Below, piece after piece: positions 13,401 through 20,967 of a DNA stretch of 22,546 nucleotides. Each line of letters starts with the position of its first letter. Within the stretch, counting starts at the first letter, position 1. The DNA is from a virus. Under the pieces are notes generated by a model, which was not told the DNA's origin, did no database searches, and saw only the letters and a list, made by a program, of their open reading frames with translations. Both the position numbers and the translations under genes were made by a program. The DNA lies in IMG/VR virus record IMGVR_UViG_3300010389_000092, positions 5,974 through 28,519 of that record; one strand, given 5' to 3'.

Positions 13401-16400
13401 AATAGTTACAATGCAGAGAACTTTAAGTATGATGTTCCATCATATCAAAATTATAGATTAACCGATTACATTGATATTAGACCTCGTGTCGCACCTTATG
13501 AATTATCATCAAAATCTCCATTTGAGTTTTCTTCAAGGAATTTTGCTTTTGATGGACAATATTCCGAGTATACTCTGTGCCCTGGAGAAAATCTAATTCT
13601 TTCATATTCATATTATGTCGGAAGAATTGATAGAGTTTTCTTAAATAGTGATGGAACTTTTGATGTTGTTCAGGGAAATCCTTCTTTAACACCAGTTCCA
13701 CCACCACTCAAATCAAACTCTTTAGATATTGCAACAATTTCTATTCAACCTTACGTTTATGATGTAAAAAATATAAGTGTTATTATGTCAAAATATAAGA
13801 GATACAGAATGTCTGACATCTCTTTACTTGAAGATAGAATTCAAAGAGTTGAAAGATTCACAACACTCTCTATGCTTGAGAGTAAAACAGAAAACTTCAC
13901 CATCAGAGATGCGGAGACTGGTTTAGATAGATTTAAGTGTGGATTTTTCGTAGACAACTTTAGTTCGCAAGAATACCACGATTTAGCAAATCCAGTGTAT
14001 AGAGCTTGTATTGATACAAGTACTAATACTTTAAGACCAGTACATTATACAACTGCTATTGATCTACAATTAGGTTCGGAGGCAATTAGTGGTGTTGGTC
14101 AGACTTTCAAACCAAATGTTGATCAAAGTTACGTCACTGACTTGGGTTCTCCAAATATTAGAAAAACGGGAGACTTAATCACTCTAAATTACAATGAAGT
14201 TCAATATTTTGAACAACCTTATGCAACTAAGACTGAAAGTGTAACACCATTCTTAGTTAGATATTGGCAAGGCACTGTAACTCTCAATCCATCTTTCGAT
14301 AGTTGGATTGAAGAGAAGAAAATAACAACTACATCCATTAATGAAATATCGGAAACTATTGATAGAGAAGATCAGAATATTACAAATGTAGAAAATGTAA
14401 CGATAGATAGAGAGGTTTGGACAAATCCACCAATAACACAAACGGGTACAAATTCATTTGACTGGATTGCTAATGCACGAAGTGTTTTGGCAGGTGTTCA
14501 AGGTCTTGGTGGAATAGCAGTTAGATTTGATCCGCGCCAAAATTCTACTAATACAACAGCGCATGGTGCTGGATTACGTAGAAATGTCATTGGAAGTGAT
14601 ATTATACAACTTAATGTATGGAAGAGTAGAGTTACTCAAGCAGATAGAAATTTAATAAATCAACTTTTACCACCAGACGTAGCAGCACAGTTTTTAACTG
14701 CAATTGATACTAGAAATCGTAACGCACGTGCAGTAATTAATTTTACTCCCGGACAACCTCCAACCATTACGGAAAGTAGAGAAACTACAACAACTACAGA
14801 ATCAACTTCAAATACGACAACTCTTATTGTCCCAGAAGAAGTTATAACTGCTGATACAACTTCAACTTCTATCTCCAATTATACTGAAGAAGTAAGATTC
14901 TTAAGAAGCAGAAATATTGAATTTGATGCAAAAGGATTGAGACCTGTTACAAAATTCTATAGTTTCTTTGAGGGAATTGATGTGCAAAATTATATAATTC
15001 CAAAATTATTAGAAGTTGAAATGATTTCTGGCAAATTTGAAATTGGAGAAACTGTAGAATCTGACCCCCACTTCACCTCACAAAAAATAAGATTTAGACT
15101 TTGCAAACCAAATCACAAAACCGGACCTTTTGATGGTTCAAATCCACCATCAATCACAACGCCAATTCCTGTTGTAGATTTTACTACTGGAGAAGTTCTT
15201 CCACAGGATCCAAATCTACAAGCAAGACCGGATATTTTTAGGTTCAACCCATATACTCAGCAATCAATTCCGGAAGATTATAGCGAATCTTCTACTTTCT
15301 TAAATGTTGATACTCGTGCATTAGAACTTCAGACAGAAACTGAATATTATGGAATGATTGCACCCAATATGAAACTTATTGGAAAAACTTCAGGTGCGGT
15401 CGCAAGAATTTCTAATATCAGAATCATTTCTGATAATTTTGGAAGATTGCTTGGTTCTTTATACATCCCAGACCCAAATGTTCCAAGTAATCCAAAATGG
15501 GTTAATGGAAGCAATACCTTTACTTTGATTGATACTCCAACATTAGAAAATTTGGGCGATATTTACCAAGAATTTATATCAAATGCAAGAATTAATGAAA
15601 GTTCTGCAGAGGCTGAATTTGCTTCATTGGCGACAGCAAACGTAGAGGAAACTAACATTTTAACTACAAGAAACATAACAATCTTAACTAGTTATAATGT
15701 AACTACAACGACTATTACAAATACAACAACAAATACAACAACTGTTGCACAAACACAGACTGGAGGGACTGGAGGATCAGATCAAGTTAGAATTTGGGAA
15801 AATCATGACCCATTAGCACAATCCTTCTATGTCCGCGATAATACTGGAATATTCTTAACCTCAGTTGAAGTTTTCTTCGAGACAAAAGATGAAAATATCC
15901 CAGTAACTCTTCAGATTAGACCTATGATTGCTGGGGTTCCTAGCAACTTAGTAGTCCCATTCTCAGAAGTTACTCTTACACCCGACGAAATCAATCTTTC
16001 CTCCGATGGAACTATTCCAACAAAAATAACTTTCCCATCTCCAGTATATCTACCTGGACCTCAGCAACTAGAAGTCAGACAAGCACCACTTGGTAGTCAG
16101 CAAAGTTCTGAGTTTGCTATTGTTCTTCTTTCCGGAAGTCCTCAATATAGAGTGTTTATTGCTGAACTTGGCAGAAATGCTATGTTGCCAGGAGATAGTC
16201 CAAATGCAGGAACTGGAATAAGATTGTCAGCACAACCAACTTTGGGAAGTTTGTTTAAATCGCAAAATGGTTCAACTTGGTCCCCTGCACAGTTAGAGGA
16301 CCTAAAATATAGACTTTATCGTGCAGATTTTGCTAATGAAGGTCTGGTTAGATTCTTCAATCCAAAACTTGATCTTGGCAACAAAAAAGTAACAATAAGT

Positions 16401-18323
16401 GGTTCAAATCAAATTCAACCACTTTCTAAGAAGATTCTTGTAGGACTTGGGTCTATTGGATATGATGCAGATAATGTAGTTCCTGGAGTGTCCTTAGTTC
16501 AAGGGTCAGCAACAGGTGAACTGGTTGGAATCGCAGGAAGTATTGCATCCGGTATTGGACTGGGAGTTTCTATTACAAATCCTGGATTTGGATACACTGC
16601 AGGAACATTCTCTGACATTGCTTTGAGAACAGAAACTGGAAGTGGTAAAGGAGCTGTTGCAACAATTGGCGTAACTGCATCCGGAATAACCACAGTTACA
16701 ATAACTAATGGCGGATTTGGATATCAACTCGGAGATTCTTTACTTATCCCAGAAACTGGATTCGGTCAAAATGTTGGATTTGGTGGAAAACTAACGGTAA
16801 CTAATATTGCATCAAATAATACATTTATTATTGATAATGTTCAAGGACAATTTTCGGTTGGAATTAATACTTTAAATTACATAAATTCTTCTGGAATTGC
16901 AACACAGACAGGAATCGGAGTTACTATTACTGAAATCTTTGAAGATCCTTACTATGATGGTCTTCATATGAAGATTTTACATATGAATCATGGAATGCAT
17001 TCATCCGAGAATTATCTGAGAATAAGTTCATTCAGACCTCTACAATCCGAAGTTAATTCTAAATTAACAGCAGCAATTACACCTACAGACACTACAATTC
17101 CAATTACGTCATCTACTGGATTCGAAACCTTTGAGAGAGTTGCTGTAGATGCTTCCAATCCTGGTTATGTAATTATTGGAGATGAAGTAATTTCTTATAC
17201 TGGTTATAGCGCAACAAGTCTCACTGGCGTAGTTAGAGGAATTGATGGAACTCAAGCGCAATCTTATGATTCTGCACTACCTGTTTATAAGTATGAATTT
17301 AATGGTATTTCATTGAGAAGAATTAACAAAGTACACAATTTTGCGGAGGTTGATGAAAATCATCCAACCGAAATTAATTCATACTTTATTAAGATTGATA
17401 CGTCAGATACTGATGGAATTGGTTCAGATAGAACAAATGATTTATACTTTAATGAGACCTTACAAACTGGAGGACCAGGAACAATTCTCACAAATAATAT
17501 TCAGTTTGAAGCAATTACACCTAATGTATCTTATATTATTCCAGGAAAAACAAATCTTGAATGTAGAATTAGAACCTTTACTGGAACAAGCATAGGTGGA
17601 AATGAGAAGTCATTCTTGGATGATGGATTCCGTTCCATTCCGCTAGATGAAACTAGTTATTTCAGCAATCCAAAATTAATTTGTTCTGACATTAATGAGC
17701 AAAAGTTCATTACAGAATCACCAGGAAGTAAATCATTTACAATGGAATTCTTAATGAATACTGTTGATTCTAGAGTATCGCCAGTTATTGATACAATCAG
17801 AGTTGGTGCAGTTTTGACATCCAATCTAATTAACAGTCCTTATGGTGTAAATGAGAATTCCAATTACGCTAATGATGATACTGTAAGAAGTCTCTTCAAT
17901 GATAAGCACTCAACGATTTATATTTCTAAACCAGTAAGACTAAAAATCCCAGCAAATTCTATCAAGGTTTTACTTTCCGCAACTCGTAATGAGTCAAATG
18001 ATGTTAGAGTTCTCTATCAACTCTTTAGAGACGATGCTCCACAGGCATCTGAAAATTATGAATTATTTCCAGGCGCAGCCAACTATCAAGTTGATGGTCA
18101 AGGTATTAAGAGAGTTATTGACCCATCCCTGAATGATGGATCTCCGGATACATTTGCAAGACAAACAAACGATTCCTCTTTCCGTGATTATGAGTATAGT
18201 GTAGATGACCTACCCGACTTTAATGCCTTTGCTATTAAGATTGTAATGGCAGGAACAAATCAAGCAACTCCTCCATTGATTCGTCAATTAAGAGCAATTG
18301 CTACTATCAAACCCAGGATTTGA
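10467..18323 (+). CDS. Giant structural protein with N-terminal DUF4815-like region (2618 residues)
   Basis: Residues 1 to about 400 look like DUF4815 of marine T4-like phages: LFKPGYPVQARELTTLQSIL, GKHIFKEGSVVIPG, YSAPGADRFKITLELSK, LARRTFDESGNYFVRPF, GPGKAYVNGYDVET. Later blocks include RYRMSDISLLEDRIQRVERF with GLDRFKCGFFVDNF (about 1110-1170), two threonine-rich linkers (about 1435-1455 and 1732-1770), HDPLAQSFYV (about 1780), Gly-Tyr repeats (about 2030-2100), an 'RG-DGT' module (2197-2275) and a conserved-looking end with VIDTIRVGAVLTSNLI, TVRSLFNDKHSTIYI and GQGIKRVIDPSLNDG. No enzymatic motif or membrane segment is seen. It fills the gap between genes 8 and 13 where T4 has 9-12, so it is inferred to be a peripheral baseplate or fibre protein; the exact role is not known. 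The ATG at 10467 is 6 nt after the gp8 stop. Confidence 0.88.
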   Translation: MPQETNLNVSPYFDDFDIDKDYYKVLFKPGYPVQARELTTLQSILQNQVEQYGKHIFKEGSVVIPGQLRYENPLYAVEIEESFNGIPISLYFDQFLGKKLRGSSSGVTAEVVYLLKNTDSERGNYTLYLKYLTSGGEDFTNRIFQSGETLTLETPLTYGNFTIQVGQGVCNTISTNATSEGSGVSVAEGIYFVRGVFARVSAQTIILSQYSISPSYKVGFDIIEQVISADEDESLFDNAQGFSNYSAPGADRFKITLELSKRNIDDLDTNNFVEILRVQNGVPQFFDKNAQYNLIRDELARRTFDESGNYFVRPFSLFVRDSLNDRVLSEGIYFKNQRTIGGNNPSEDLMVYQIGPGKAYVNGYDVETIAPRLLDVPKPRTTQTTDTEVIPFNAGSLFIVNNTYGFPSIGLGTNTTVSLMDSRIGESPSVATGTTIGLARIYDCVPESSYIDDTSRFNLRLFDIRTYTKIGLTTSFGGTGLSTPCFIEGKRSRATGYLKESVSATGTELTLYETTGNFLENEQIVVNGIDNGRLIQSVIDYSISDIKSIYSQVGINTFNADLVLSRGSYIAKPGTTFRVDNGVVSAGLNNVFTKLVKIGDIVSYASTTFTGDPIYNKVTSIGAGGTSFTITGITTVADICDGALPAGSFDVANIIKVAPSIDSTNSSLLTLLNIDNVSSVNFEGNEVIQRRSYNVASFSGSSISVTIDPSDADIFFDSFDEDRFLITYSDGDIEPLRSDQYNVSLDGKTITFNGLTKSSGTDVIVIATVRNIRPSSKSKKFNKVSSLVISNSSLVNSGIGTTTLNDGLTYSNVYGTRVQDKIISLNVPDVVRVLAVYESNSIGEPALPTLLISGNPDNNQNFVVGEYIEGRDSGATAIITRKIDTNKLEYVYLNTIQFSVGEVVVGSESAEEAIISSKVLGDKNITKNFLLDDGQRDTFYDYSRIIRKSNLQEPNKKLKIIFQNYTIDSSDTGEFITANSYNAENFKYDVPSYQNYRLTDYIDIRPRVAPYELSSKSPFEFSSRNFAFDGQYSEYTLCPGENLILSYSYYVGRIDRVFLNSDGTFDVVQGNPSLTPVPPPLKSNSLDIATISIQPYVYDVKNISVIMSKYKRYRMSDISLLEDRIQRVERFTTLSMLESKTENFTIRDAETGLDRFKCGFFVDNFSSQEYHDLANPVYRACIDTSTNTLRPVHYTTAIDLQLGSEAISGVGQTFKPNVDQSYVTDLGSPNIRKTGDLITLNYNEVQYFEQPYATKTESVTPFLVRYWQGTVTLNPSFDSWIEEKKITTTSINEISETIDREDQNITNVENVTIDREVWTNPPITQTGTNSFDWIANARSVLAGVQGLGGIAVRFDPRQNSTNTTAHGAGLRRNVIGSDIIQLNVWKSRVTQADRNLINQLLPPDVAAQFLTAIDTRNRNARAVINFTPGQPPTITESRETTTTTESTSNTTTLIVPEEVITADTTSTSISNYTEEVRFLRSRNIEFDAKGLRPVTKFYSFFEGIDVQNYIIPKLLEVEMISGKFEIGETVESDPHFTSQKIRFRLCKPNHKTGPFDGSNPPSITTPIPVVDFTTGEVLPQDPNLQARPDIFRFNPYTQQSIPEDYSESSTFLNVDTRALELQTETEYYGMIAPNMKLIGKTSGAVARISNIRIISDNFGRLLGSLYIPDPNVPSNPKWVNGSNTFTLIDTPTLENLGDIYQEFISNARINESSAEAEFASLATANVEETNILTTRNITILTSYNVTTTTITNTTTNTTTVAQTQTGGTGGSDQVRIWENHDPLAQSFYVRDNTGIFLTSVEVFFETKDENIPVTLQIRPMIAGVPSNLVVPFSEVTLTPDEINLSSDGTIPTKITFPSPVYLPGPQQLEVRQAPLGSQQSSEFAIVLLSGSPQYRVFIAELGRNAMLPGDSPNAGTGIRLSAQPTLGSLFKSQNGSTWSPAQLEDLKYRLYRADFANEGLVRFFNPKLDLGNKKVTISGSNQIQPLSKKILVGLGSIGYDADNVVPGVSLVQGSATGELVGIAGSIASGIGLGVSITNPGFGYTAGTFSDIALRTETGSGKGAVATIGVTASGITTVTITNGGFGYQLGDSLLIPETGFGQNVGFGGKLTVTNIASNNTFIIDNVQGQFSVGINTLNYINSSGIATQTGIGVTITEIFEDPYYDGLHMKILHMNHGMHSSENYLRISSFRPLQSEVNSKLTAAITPTDTTIPITSSTGFETFERVAVDASNPGYVIIGDEVISYTGYSATSLTGVVRGIDGTQAQSYDSALPVYKYEFNGISLRRINKVHNFAEVDENHPTEINSYFIKIDTSDTDGIGSDRTNDLYFNETLQTGGPGTILTNNIQFEAITPNVSYIIPGKTNLECRIRTFTGTSIGGNEKSFLDDGFRSIPLDETSYFSNPKLICSDINEQKFITESPGSKSFTMEFLMNTVDSRVSPVIDTIRVGAVLTSNLINSPYGVNENSNYANDDTVRSLFNDKHSTIYISKPVRLKIPANSIKVLLSATRNESNDVRVLYQLFRDDAPQASENYELFPGAANYQVDGQGIKRVIDPSLNDGSPDTFARQTNDSSFRDYEYSVDDLPDFNAFAIKIVMAGTNQATPPLIRQLRAIATIKPRI
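14770..14835 (+). repeat. Threonine/serine-rich linker in the 2618-residue protein
   Basis: The codons specify ESRETTTTTESTSNTTTLI, low-complexity sequence separating the central part of the protein from the block RSRNIEFDAKGLRPVTKFYS. It probably forms an extended, flexible hinge; that is inference from composition. Confidence 0.6.
15655..15785 (+). repeat. Second threonine-rich linker, with tandem ACAACAAATAC DNA repeats
   Basis: Residues about 1732-1770 read TTRNITILTSYNVTTTTITN followed by more Thr/Asn and a glycine-rich GGTGGSD, just before the block beginning IWENHDPLAQSFYV. The DNA has short tandem copies of ACAACAAATAC-like units, a possible site of slippage. The composition suggests a hinge between two folded parts. 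Confidence 0.6.
16555..16760 (+). repeat. Gly-Tyr repeats in the 2618-residue protein
   Basis: Two units, VSITNPGFGYTAGTFSDI and VTITNGGFGYQLGDSLLIPE, are separated by an Ala/Gly stretch with GSGKGAVATIG. They match the pattern of the repeats in the giant protein, gp8 and gp14. Confidence 0.75.
17056..17290 (+). repeat. 'RG-DGT' beta module in the 2618-residue protein
   Basis: The segment runs TDTTIPITSSTGFETFERVA, IIGDEVISYTGYSATSLTG, VVRGIDGTQAQSYDSALPV. It aligns by eye with the C-terminal part of gp15 (21764-21985) and with 6118-6340 in the first giant protein, which share the order 'I.I...S.F', 'G-D/N-E-(V/I)', 'V(R)(G/N)..GT....H/Y..G..V'. Confidence 0.65.
18315..18318 (+). promoter_or_regulatory. 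Ribosome binding site deciding the start of the 75-residue gene
   Basis: AGGA lies 7 nt before the ATG at 18326, inside the last codons of the preceding gene. It is too close to an in-frame TTG at 18320, so it favours the ATG as the real start. Confidence 0.6.
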
Positions 18324-18325
18324 TT

Positions 18326-18553
18326 ATGGAATATATTAAAGTGAAAGATAAAGACCACCTTGCAAGAGATATGAATTCAAATGGAATTGTAAATTTTGAT
18401 ATGAAGGGTTATGAGAAATATATTGAGAACTACAAAAGAGTTTACAGTGAATCTCAAAAAATTAAAAATCTCGAGAGCGAAATGAGTGAAATTAAAGATG
18501 ATTTAAATGAAATTAAAACTTTATTGAGGAATTTAGCAAATGGATCCAGATAA
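18326..18553 (+). CDS. Small coiled-coil protein (75 residues) upstream of gp13
   Basis: The product starts MEYIKVKDKDHLARDMNSNG and has two parts: an N-terminal region of about 38 residues with a Tyr-rich helix (YEKYIENYKRVY), and a C-terminal helix with heptad positions I, L, M, I, L, I, L, L spaced 3-4-3-4-3-4-3 (IKNLESEMSEIKDDLNEIKT onward). This is a nearly ideal coiled coil. The ATG at 18326 is 2 nt after the preceding stop and has AGGA at the right distance; an in-frame TTG at 18320 is less likely. The gene overlaps the next by 14 nt. Similar small proteins occur before gene 13 in marine T4-like phages; I know of no assigned function. The position corresponds to wac (fibritin) in T4, but there is no sequence evidence of homology. 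Confidence 0.85.
   Translation: MEYIKVKDKDHLARDMNSNGIVNFDMKGYEKYIENYKRVYSESQKIKNLESEMSEIKDDLNEIKTLLRNLANGSR
18526..18530 (+). promoter_or_regulatory. Ribosome binding site of the 54-residue gene
   Basis: GAGGA is 9 nt before the ATG at 18540, within the end of the coiled-coil gene. It supports translation of the very short gene that follows. Confidence 0.6.
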
Positions 18554-18704
18554 AATTACTTTAGAAAATATATCTAAATTATTTGAATATGAGAAACTTT
18601 CTAGAGACCTAGATAGTATAGATGATATTGAAACTTTAAGAAATTTTGCAAAATCTTATGCAAAACTCTATTTCAAACAACAAGAAGTCATATTAACACT
18701 CTAA
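18540..18704 (+). CDS. Small acidic helical protein (54 residues) upstream of gp13
   Basis: ATG 18540 to TAA 18702-18704 encodes MDPDKITLENISKLFEYEKL, then SRDLDSIDDIETLRNFAKSY, then AKLYFKQQEVILTL. It has no membrane segment or known motif; it reads as two amphipathic helices. It overlaps the preceding gene by 14 nt and its stop codon shares one base with the gp13 start (TAATG), so the three genes are probably translationally coupled. A GAGGA ribosome site precedes it. The reading is supported because it exactly fills the space between the 75-residue gene and gp13, and because similar short proteins (with '..IDDI.TLRNFAKSYAKLY..QQE') are familiar from this place in marine T4-like phages. The function is unknown. 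Confidence 0.8.
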   Translation: MDPDKITLENISKLFEYEKLSRDLDSIDDIETLRNFAKSYAKLYFKQQEVILTL

Positions 18705-19549
18705 TGGCACAACCATCTACCAGACAAGAACTTATTGATTATTGCAAAAGAAAACTGGGTTCTCCAGTATTAGAAATAAATGTAGCTGATGAGCAAATTG
18801 AAGATTTAGTAGATGACGCCATTCAATTGTTCCAAGAGAGGCATTTTGATGGGGTGTATCCAACATTTTACAAATATAAAATAACCCAAGATGACATTGA
18901 TAGGGGAAGAACTAGAGGGGGATCTTCCCCTGTGGGAATTGCAACAACTACTACAACTGTAAATGTAGCTGGTATACCAGCTACATTTACATACGAAGAA
19001 AATAGCAATTATCTTCAAGTTCCACCAAATATTATTGGAGTAAATAAAATTTTTACCTTTGACGGTACAAATACGATTACAAATAATATGTTCAGTGTGA
19101 AATATCAATTATTTTTAAATGACGTTTATTATTGGGGTTCAACTGAGTTGTTGAGTTATTCTATGATAAAAACTTACTTAGAGGATCTTGACTTTTTATT
19201 AAACACTCAGAAACAAATAAGATTTAATAAAAGGCAAGACAGATTATATTTAGATATTGATTGGTCATCAGTATCTGTCAATAATTACATAATTATAGAT
19301 TGCTATTCAACGTTAGATCCAAATGATTATTCCAGAGTGTGGAATGATTCTTTTATAAAATTATATTTAACTTCGTTAATTAAGAAGCAATGGGGTCAAA
19401 ATATGATGAAATTTGTTGGGGTAAAACTTCCTGGTGGTATAGAATTAAATGGAAGACAAATGTATGATGATGCACAGAGAGAGTTGGATGTCTTAATGGA
19501 AAAAATGTCTAATACTTACGAACTTCCACCATTAGACATGATTGGGTAA
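18704..19549 (+). CDS. 13: Neck protein gp13 (head completion)
   Basis: gp13 joins the portal vertex after DNA packaging and, with gp14, forms the neck to which the tail attaches. The 281-residue product begins with the family's typical N-terminus (STRQELIDYCKRKLGSPVLE, VADEQIEDLVDDAIQLFQER) followed by HFDGVYPTFYKYKIT, and has the later block DLDFLLNTQKQIRFNKRQDR and the W.GQNMMKF.GV.LPGG region. T4 gp13 is 309 residues. The start ATG overlaps the previous stop by one base; no strong ribosome site is seen, so coupling is likely. A variable loop at about residues 66-98 (RGRTRGGSSPVGIATTTTT and onward) is encoded by DNA with two inverted repeats, including a 34-bp palindrome. Its place immediately before gp14 is the T4 order. 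Confidence 0.92.
   Translation: MAQPSTRQELIDYCKRKLGSPVLEINVADEQIEDLVDDAIQLFQERHFDGVYPTFYKYKITQDDIDRGRTRGGSSPVGIATTTTTVNVAGIPATFTYEENSNYLQVPPNIIGVNKIFTFDGTNTITNNMFSVKYQLFLNDVYYWGSTELLSYSMIKTYLEDLDFLLNTQKQIRFNKRQDRLYLDIDWSSVSVNNYIIIDCYSTLDPNDYSRVWNDSFIKLYLTSLIKKQWGQNMMKFVGVKLPGGIELNGRQMYDDAQRELDVLMEKMSNTYELPPLDMIG
18903..18930 (+). other. Inverted repeat in gene 13 (8-bp stem)
   Basis: GGGGAAGA (18903-18910) and TCTTCCCC (18923-18930) are exact reverse complements with a 12-nt spacer. A shorter alternative fold uses GGGGA and TCCCC closer together. The stem is G+C-rich in an A+T-rich gene and lies 27 nt before a long palindrome. Confidence 0.6.
18958..18991 (+). other. 34-bp perfect palindrome inside gene 13
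   Basis: The left half TGTAAATGTAGCTGGTA (18958-18974) is followed without spacer by its exact reverse complement (18975-18991). As RNA it would form a stem of about 15 bp closed by UAUA; as DNA it could extrude a cruciform. It codes for VNVAGIPATFT in the gp13 frame and keeps the frame intact. Confidence 0.9.
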
Positions 19550-19554
19550 AAAAT

Positions 19555-20967
19555 ATGCTAAATCCGTTTTTTCTTCAGGGTTCTAAATCAGAGCAAGGTC
19601 TCATTCAAGATCTGATCAATGAACAACTTAGAATGTATGGAGTTGAAGTTTATTATCTTCCAAGGCAATATGTAACAGAAAAAACTATTATAAGAGAAGT
19701 TATAGAATCGGAATTTAATAATGCATATCCAATTGAAGCTTACATAGATACTTATGATGGATATGCAGATAATCCAACCATTCTTTCAAAGTTTGGAATA
19801 CAAGCATTAAATGAAATTACATTAATTATATCTAGAGAAAGATTTAAAAATTATATTTCTCCACTTACAAAAAATGCAATTAATATAAAATTATCAACAA
19901 GACCAAAAGAAGGCGATTTAATCTATTTTCCCTTAGGCGAAAGATTATTTGAAATTAAATATGTGGAACATGAGAAACCATTTTATCAACTTCAAGGATT
20001 ATACACATACCAGTTAAGATGTGAATTATTTAGATATGAAGATGAAATTATTGATACTAGTATTGAAGAAATTGATGGAATAATTAGTGGAGATGATTTA
20101 ACCGACCCAGAAAAAATTTCTTCAAGTAACCTAATAAGTTTAACGATGGTTGGGTTAGGAGTTACTGCAACGGCAACTGTATCTATAGTTGATGGTGGAG
20201 TAAGATACGTAACTATGACTAATAGGGGAGGTGGATATACTAGCACTCCCACAGTTGGATTTTCATCTGCTCCGGTTAATGGAAAAACGGCGGCCGCCGT
20301 TGCAAAAATGATTAGCGGAATAGTTGTATGTAACGACAATACCAATCCACAGGCCTCTTCTGTTCAAGAAGTTTTAATTACAAATTCTGGATTTGGATAT
20401 ACAGTGGCTCCAGGGGTAAGATTTATTGGCGGAGGAGGAAGCGGGGCAACAGGAATTTCTTCCATTGGAGATGGTATAGTTGGAATTATTACTGTCACAA
20501 ATTCTGGTTCCGGATATATAACTTCACCGCCAATAACATTTAATGGTAGTTCTGCAGTCTCTGCAGCTGCAACAGCAGTAGTATCTACTGAAGGATCTAT
20601 TGCTGCCATTTATATTACAAATGCAGGTCTTGGTTATACAGAAACTCCGACTATTTTTATAGGAGATCCTGCTTTAACTTCAACTGGAAGTTTTATTTTT
20701 AATGAAACTATTACTGGATCTCAAAGTGGAGTAACTGCAAAAGTAAAATCTTGGAATTCTATCACAAATATACTTCAAGTTTCAAATGTTAGTGGAACGT
20801 TTATTCTTGGAGAAAATATTATAGGATCAGAGTCAAATGCATCACATTATCTAAGATTAATAGATGAATTTCCTTCAGATGATGGATATGCAAATAATGA
20901 TCAAATAGAAGAGGAGGCGGATAATATTATAGATTTTAGTGAGACTAATCCGTTTGGAATGCCATAA
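19555..20967 (+). CDS. 14: Neck protein gp14 with inserted Gly-Tyr repeats
   Basis: gp14 completes the head neck together with gp13. Residues 1 to about 165 match T4 gp14 closely: [60 protein letters not shown] and [20 protein letters not shown] resemble T4 'IQMRGVECYYVPREY', 'AAYLNSFEGYE', '[20 protein letters not shown]' and 'PFYQLG'. The end, ...NPFGMP, corresponds to T4 'SSPFDNDFMD'. The protein is 470 residues against 256 in T4: about 225 residues (203-428) are inserted before the C-terminal tail, comprising four Gly-Tyr repeats and one 'SG-TA...G.F..GE' module. The ATG is 5 nt after the gp13 stop. The gene ends 65 nt before gp15. Confidence 0.95.
   Translation: [470 protein letters not shown]
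20195..20700 (+). repeat. Four Gly-Tyr repeats inserted in gp14
   Basis: Units are [52 protein letters not shown] and [18 protein letters not shown], each preceded by a strand such as VRYVTM, VQEVLI, VGIITV or IAAIYI and followed by an Ala/Gly-rich stretch. Spacing is about 38-54 residues. This is the most regular copy of the repeat in the window. Confidence 0.85.
20286..20301 (+). other. 16-bp perfect G+C-rich palindrome in gene 14
   Basis: AACGGCGGCCGCCGTT reads the same on both strands and contains an 8-bp NotI-type GCGGCCGC core. It codes for part of KTAAAVAK at the border of the first gp14 repeat. Its G+C content is far above that of its surroundings. Confidence 0.8.

Follow-up and report, generated by a model that had tools for sequence, protein, structure and literature searches.

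The first description of quasi-palindrome correction, in which an imperfect inverted repeat is turned into a perfect one by template switching, came from phage T4 rIIB and yeast CYC1 (Ripley 1982, as recounted in PMC7202029); the same account places mutational hotspots of this type in T4 rIIB and describes the process in the E. coli thyA and lacZ reporters (PMC7202029). T4 also provides templated mutations, which are copied from an imperfect repeat located elsewhere (Schultz, Carver and Drake 2006, as cited in PMC3016281). In yeast coding genes, template switching homogenises the arms of inverted repeats and can replace up to five neighbouring residues (PMC8604942), and perfect stems can arise from one template-switch event (PMC8794818). 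Palindromes in coding sequence whose third codon positions pair with each other are phase 3 repeats, the most constraining class (PMC6649704).

The locus examined here is a palindrome within a structural gene of a T4-like phage. It was found in a stretch of 22,546 nt, referred to below as the window, which is part of a 28.5-kb metagenomic virus record. As in quasi-palindrome template-switch mutation, an imperfect inverted repeat appears to have become perfect and rare bases match the base opposite, here in a T4-like phage; unlike in the reporters, the end product alone is seen, in a natural metagenomic phage, and rare changes occur on both arms. As in the T4 templated mutations, a direct copy of 12 nt within 200 nt could template the left arm, although here this donor role is post hoc and statistical. 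Adjacent residue replacements and homogenised inverted-repeat arms in a coding gene recall the yeast multinucleotide changes; in contrast to these, the arms are 17 nt long and spacerless, and six of eight residues are unusual for the family. The palindromes of Nematomorpha mitochondria (PMC6649704) are likewise perfect inverted repeats lying wholly in coding genes with the frame intact, but the palindrome of the window, which is in phase 3, is single, short (34 bp) and not genome-wide. Our best reading is that it represents a further example of an already described mutation process, ordinary in kind and unusually clean.

A perfect palindrome in the neck protein gene

The window corresponds to the late structural region of a T4-like phage and includes gp8 (PF09215), gp13 (phrog_211), gp14 (PF11649), gp15 (PF16724) and the small terminase (PF11053). 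Marine phages of Synechococcus and Prochlorococcus are the named phages that it matches at the DNA level; one of them, Synechococcus phage S-SM2, likewise has gp14 after gp13. Homology and position ahead of gp14 identify the predicted product of gene 13 as the T4-like neck protein gp13. Gene 13 is an essential neck-protein gene.

Positions 18958-18991 are identical to their own reverse complement and form two perfect 17-nt arms with no spacer (Table 1). The limits are exact, since the flanking C and T at 18957 and 18992 do not pair. The initial annotation, which had reported a perfect palindrome with 17-bp arms, beyond chance in 22 kb and with the coding sequence preserved, was accurate on each of these points. 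With independent bases, 9e-6 spacerless palindromes with 17-nt arms are expected in 22.5 kb; the longest arms in 100 third-order Markov simulations were of 11 nt, the second-longest spacerless palindrome of the window has arms of 8 nt and the longest spacerless arms in 1.79 Mb of related phages' loci are of 12 nt. The 34-nt palindrome is thus real and, in a simple sense, not due to chance. It occurs once in the 28.5-kb record, where other matches to the arms are weak except for the copy at 18777, and the viral collection yielded no exact match beyond the window. When inverted repeats are ranked by arm length, the longest in the window is at 15172-15221 (24 nt, 75% complementary, 2-nt spacer), inside a gene for a 2618-aa structural protein.

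Table 1. Features of gene 13 and its repeats (window coordinates)
Feature	Position	Strand	Description
Gene 13, T4-like neck protein (head-tail adaptor Ad2), 281 aa	18704..19549	+	phrog_211, E=4e-47; profile hit on the solved neck proteins 9mkb/9lu4 (gp13), E about 1e-16
Possible donor: 12-nt direct copy of part of left arm (18960-18971)	18777..18788	+	TAAATGTAGCTG; within gene 13, at its conserved EINVADEQ stretch
Second inverted repeat, 9-nt arms, 12-nt spacer	18902..18931	+	AGGGGAAGA/TCTTCCCCT; same variable segment as palindrome
Palindrome, left arm	18958..18974	+	TGTAAATGTAGCTGGTA; residues V86 to G90; rare bases 18960, 18965, 18969
Palindrome, right arm	18975..18991	+	TACCAGCTACATTTACA; residues I91 to T96; rare bases 18975, 18977; uncommon base 18980

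The gp13 reading frame is open through the palindrome and its product is of the same size as in relatives. A hairpin had been proposed between the tiny upstream genes and gp14, but the site is instead inside gp13, 254 nt past the first base of the gene and 558 nt ahead of its end.

Two further repeats lie nearby. The direct copy at 18777-18788 is 183 nt upstream and spans all three rare left-arm bases; of 1273 places in the window, 3 share a word of at least 12 nt within 200 nt, and no relative in a set of 126 gene 13 sequences carries the 12-mer. On this statistical and post hoc basis, the copy may be the donor of the left arm. The second inverted repeat is located 26 nt ahead of the palindrome. 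Repeats at least as good are present in about 2% of similar segments of the window, and in relatives no arm is longer than 8 over a slightly wider segment.

Gene 13 also coincides with a change in relatedness. Identity to two close relatives (L088 and L093) is mostly 94-100%, and 85% at its lowest, over positions 17001-18700. Once gene 13 begins (18750-20700 compared), it drops to roughly 55-90%, with 75-80% being typical. This drop near 18700 points to a mosaic junction at the start of gp13. Just upstream, at 18540-18704, a gene of 54 aa (phrog_27081, function unknown) overlaps the genes on either side. Its protein is 94-100% identical in seven viral contigs; the gp13 beside it is much more divergent in the contigs compared.

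The encoded loop and pairing among relatives

Matches to gene 13 were found at 268 loci among viral contigs, 206 of them distinct at the DNA level, and the closest gene 13 among the sampled relatives has 81% nt identity. The palindrome codes for TVNVAGIPATFT, where most relatives have T-NIVGTATTFT; the commonest form of the loop is T-T/A-N-I-V-G-T-A-T-T-F-T compared to T-V-N-V-A-G-I-P-A-T-F-T in the window. Residues V86, V88, A89, I91, P92 and A93 are changed while the conserved N87, G90, T94 and F95 are retained, and the outer half of the right arm, which codes for TFT, is near the family consensus. V88, A89 and I91 are found in other lineages (L010 and L011 have NVAGI); P92 and A93 are rare in the family and each improves pairing. 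None of the relatives' loops listed encodes the loop sequence of the window, and the palindrome is absent from every gene 13 loop examined among the sampled relatives. Exact, core and degenerate-codon scans of the viral collection revealed no further gene 13 copy of the loop, and a direct search of this collection gave no intermediate allele combining NVAGI with an unchanged right arm. The absence of the palindrome from sampled relatives, together with the lack of an exact match elsewhere in the collection, indicates a private change. The only match from these scans was in a baseplate-like gene of another phage (L082:4930-4951), which codes for NVAGQPATSYY and carries a 9+4+9 inverted repeat with the same arm letters. 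By a rough estimate such a match is at chance level for a collection of this size, and it is probably due to chance or convergence.

An AlphaFold2 model of low confidence (mean pLDDT 50, about 60 here) has residues 79-88 and 91-100 as strands on either side of a turn at 89-90. In this model the palindrome would correspond to a beta-hairpin tip, and a beta-hairpin is probable at this site across the gene 13 family. Distant relatives carry indels in the loop, in agreement with the initial description of the region as variable, and these, with the seven relatives described below, support the view that the loop is permissive.

The gene 13 family carries an imperfect palindrome at this site. At the palindrome centre, relatives (n=101) pair on average at 8.4 of 17 positions, with a maximum of 12, compared to 17 of 17 in the window. 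The centre ranks second of 25 in-frame centres for relatives' pairing, which is not outstanding since a centre shifted by +36 scores 8.51. Across the palindrome, third codon positions face third positions and positions 1 and 2 face positions 2 and 1, so that residue pairs such as N/F and V/T make the family codons partly self-complementary.

Against this background, bases at codon positions 1 and 2 that are rare, as judged among living relatives, are concentrated in the palindrome: they occupy 5 of 22 sites there and 9 of 540 elsewhere in gene 13 (Fisher P = 9e-5). They are 18960T, 18965G, 18969C, 18975T and 18977C, with frequencies among relatives of 1%, 2%, 8%, 6% and 4% respectively. Four of the five pair with the majority base opposite (18960T/18989A, 70%; 18965G/18984C, 98%; 18975T/18974A, 93%; 18977C/18972G, 100%), and the fifth, 18969C, faces 18980G, which is also uncommon (13%). 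The six third-position pairs match without exception. For the given protein and the codon usage of the window, a perfect palindrome has a probability of 0.002, and coincidence at the protein level alone is therefore insufficient. At least as many rare bases occur at the loop, with no palindrome, in seven sampled relatives (L236, L229, L094, L090, L088, L106 and L021); clustering alone is thus not specific and is no proof of a single event.

Pairing itself is not conserved. In an alignment of 30 distinct sequences, including that of the window, the 17 pairs form in 58.4% of cells compared to 57.3% in column shuffles, and 85 of 500 shuffles gave a covariation score at least as high. These figures do not support a hairpin conserved in RNA or DNA, which was rejected since pairing is not retained by compensatory change across relatives.

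Alternative explanations

Independent substitutions could have accumulated by chance if selection acted for VNVAGIPATFT at the protein level while codon drift made up the remaining pairs. Codon positions 1 and 2 are already complementary in the residue pairs V/T, N/F, V/T, A/A and G/P, the loop evolves fast and three of its six changed residues recur in other lineages as noted above. This is nevertheless unlikely: every third-position pair matches in spite of the low probability calculated for the given protein, both P92 and A93 are rare and better pairing, and the 1.79 Mb of related DNA contain no spacerless arm of more than 12 nt.

Alternatively, the palindrome might be a functional RNA hairpin in the gp13 mRNA, acting as a processing site or translation-pause element and new in the lineage of the window. 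The predicted fold of the 34 nt is strong (-22.1 kcal/mol, z = -7.3) and is still predicted in 191 nt of context. However, no sampled relative keeps it, pairing equals that of column shuffles, and the window has no Rfam match, nor any tRNA. There is no terminator-like site at the palindrome, the only two such patterns in the window being weak, on the minus strand and located elsewhere. The hairpin also lies in the reading frame of a structural gene and would be expected to be unwound by ribosomes during translation. Where the initial annotation had suggested comparing relatives for pairing as opposed to sequence, the region proves to vary, with pairing not kept, at about 80% nt identity. We consider a functional hairpin of this type distinctly improbable, and it is very unlikely that a lineage-specific new hairpin in gp13 paces translation or processes the neck-gene mRNA under selection in unsampled close relatives.

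An assembly or amplification artefact has to be considered for a metagenomic virus record of 28.5 kb. It is very doubtful indeed, since a fold-back would invert the sequence past the palindrome while here both flanks are collinear with relatives, the frame is open, gene 13 has a normal length and N87, G90, T94 and F95 are kept. That the palindrome serves as a recognition site in DNA, or as a cruciform, for a junction resolvase, site-specific recombinase or protelomerase is extremely improbable, since support for this (including that for the resolvase substrate proposed earlier) is limited to the perfect symmetry of the palindrome itself and a predicted single-strand DNA hairpin of -14.6 kcal/mol (-1.7 to -3.2 for the 34-mers of four relatives), whereas the record has one copy, the viral collection no other, the site is within a structural gene and the sampled relatives are without it.

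Probable template switching at the tip of a variable loop

The palindrome is, in our view, likely to be a mutational product without function, generated by quasi-palindrome correction through template switching at the tip of a variable loop. Among the three ideas in the initial annotation, it is the trace of a template switch that the evidence favours. Since the palindrome is missing from the related genes examined, it is most likely a scar left by a local error of copying in DNA replication and not a working signal. Rare bases which fit the opposite arm, complete third-position pairing and the imperfect pairing of relatives together make the copying of one arm from the other at the DNA level the most economical explanation, although the mechanism, the number and order of steps and their neutrality are inferred.

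The family codons for the probable beta-hairpin would happen to form an imperfect palindrome. In the lineage of the window, the replicating strand would then have switched template within gene 13, one arm being copied from the other to give a perfect palindrome. The left arm may have come from the 18777-18788 repeat, in a copying event that preceded this switch or was linked to it. Changes are required on both arms, and in the pair 18969/18980 neither base is common among relatives. Copying once in one direction from an allele of the sampled type is therefore insufficient, and the palindrome must have taken two steps or more, or else have passed through an intermediate that is not among the sampled alleles. 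In one scenario, the left arm would derive from 18777-18788 and the inner right arm (18975, 18977 and 18980) would subsequently be corrected from the left arm; in another, the conserved right arm would first have served as template for the left. Inversion of one contiguous segment was also considered and rejected: it would not perfect the inner arms unless these were palindromic beforehand. We propose that the changed residues are tolerated because they are at the tip of a variable loop.

If template switching is the right explanation, a strong hairpin that is private to one phage contig should not be taken for a regulatory element. The palindrome then provides a clear natural case of the process in a T4-like structural gene, with about six loop residues replaced and the gene still open, and suggests that loops encoded by structural genes in marine T4-like phages can change by jumps.
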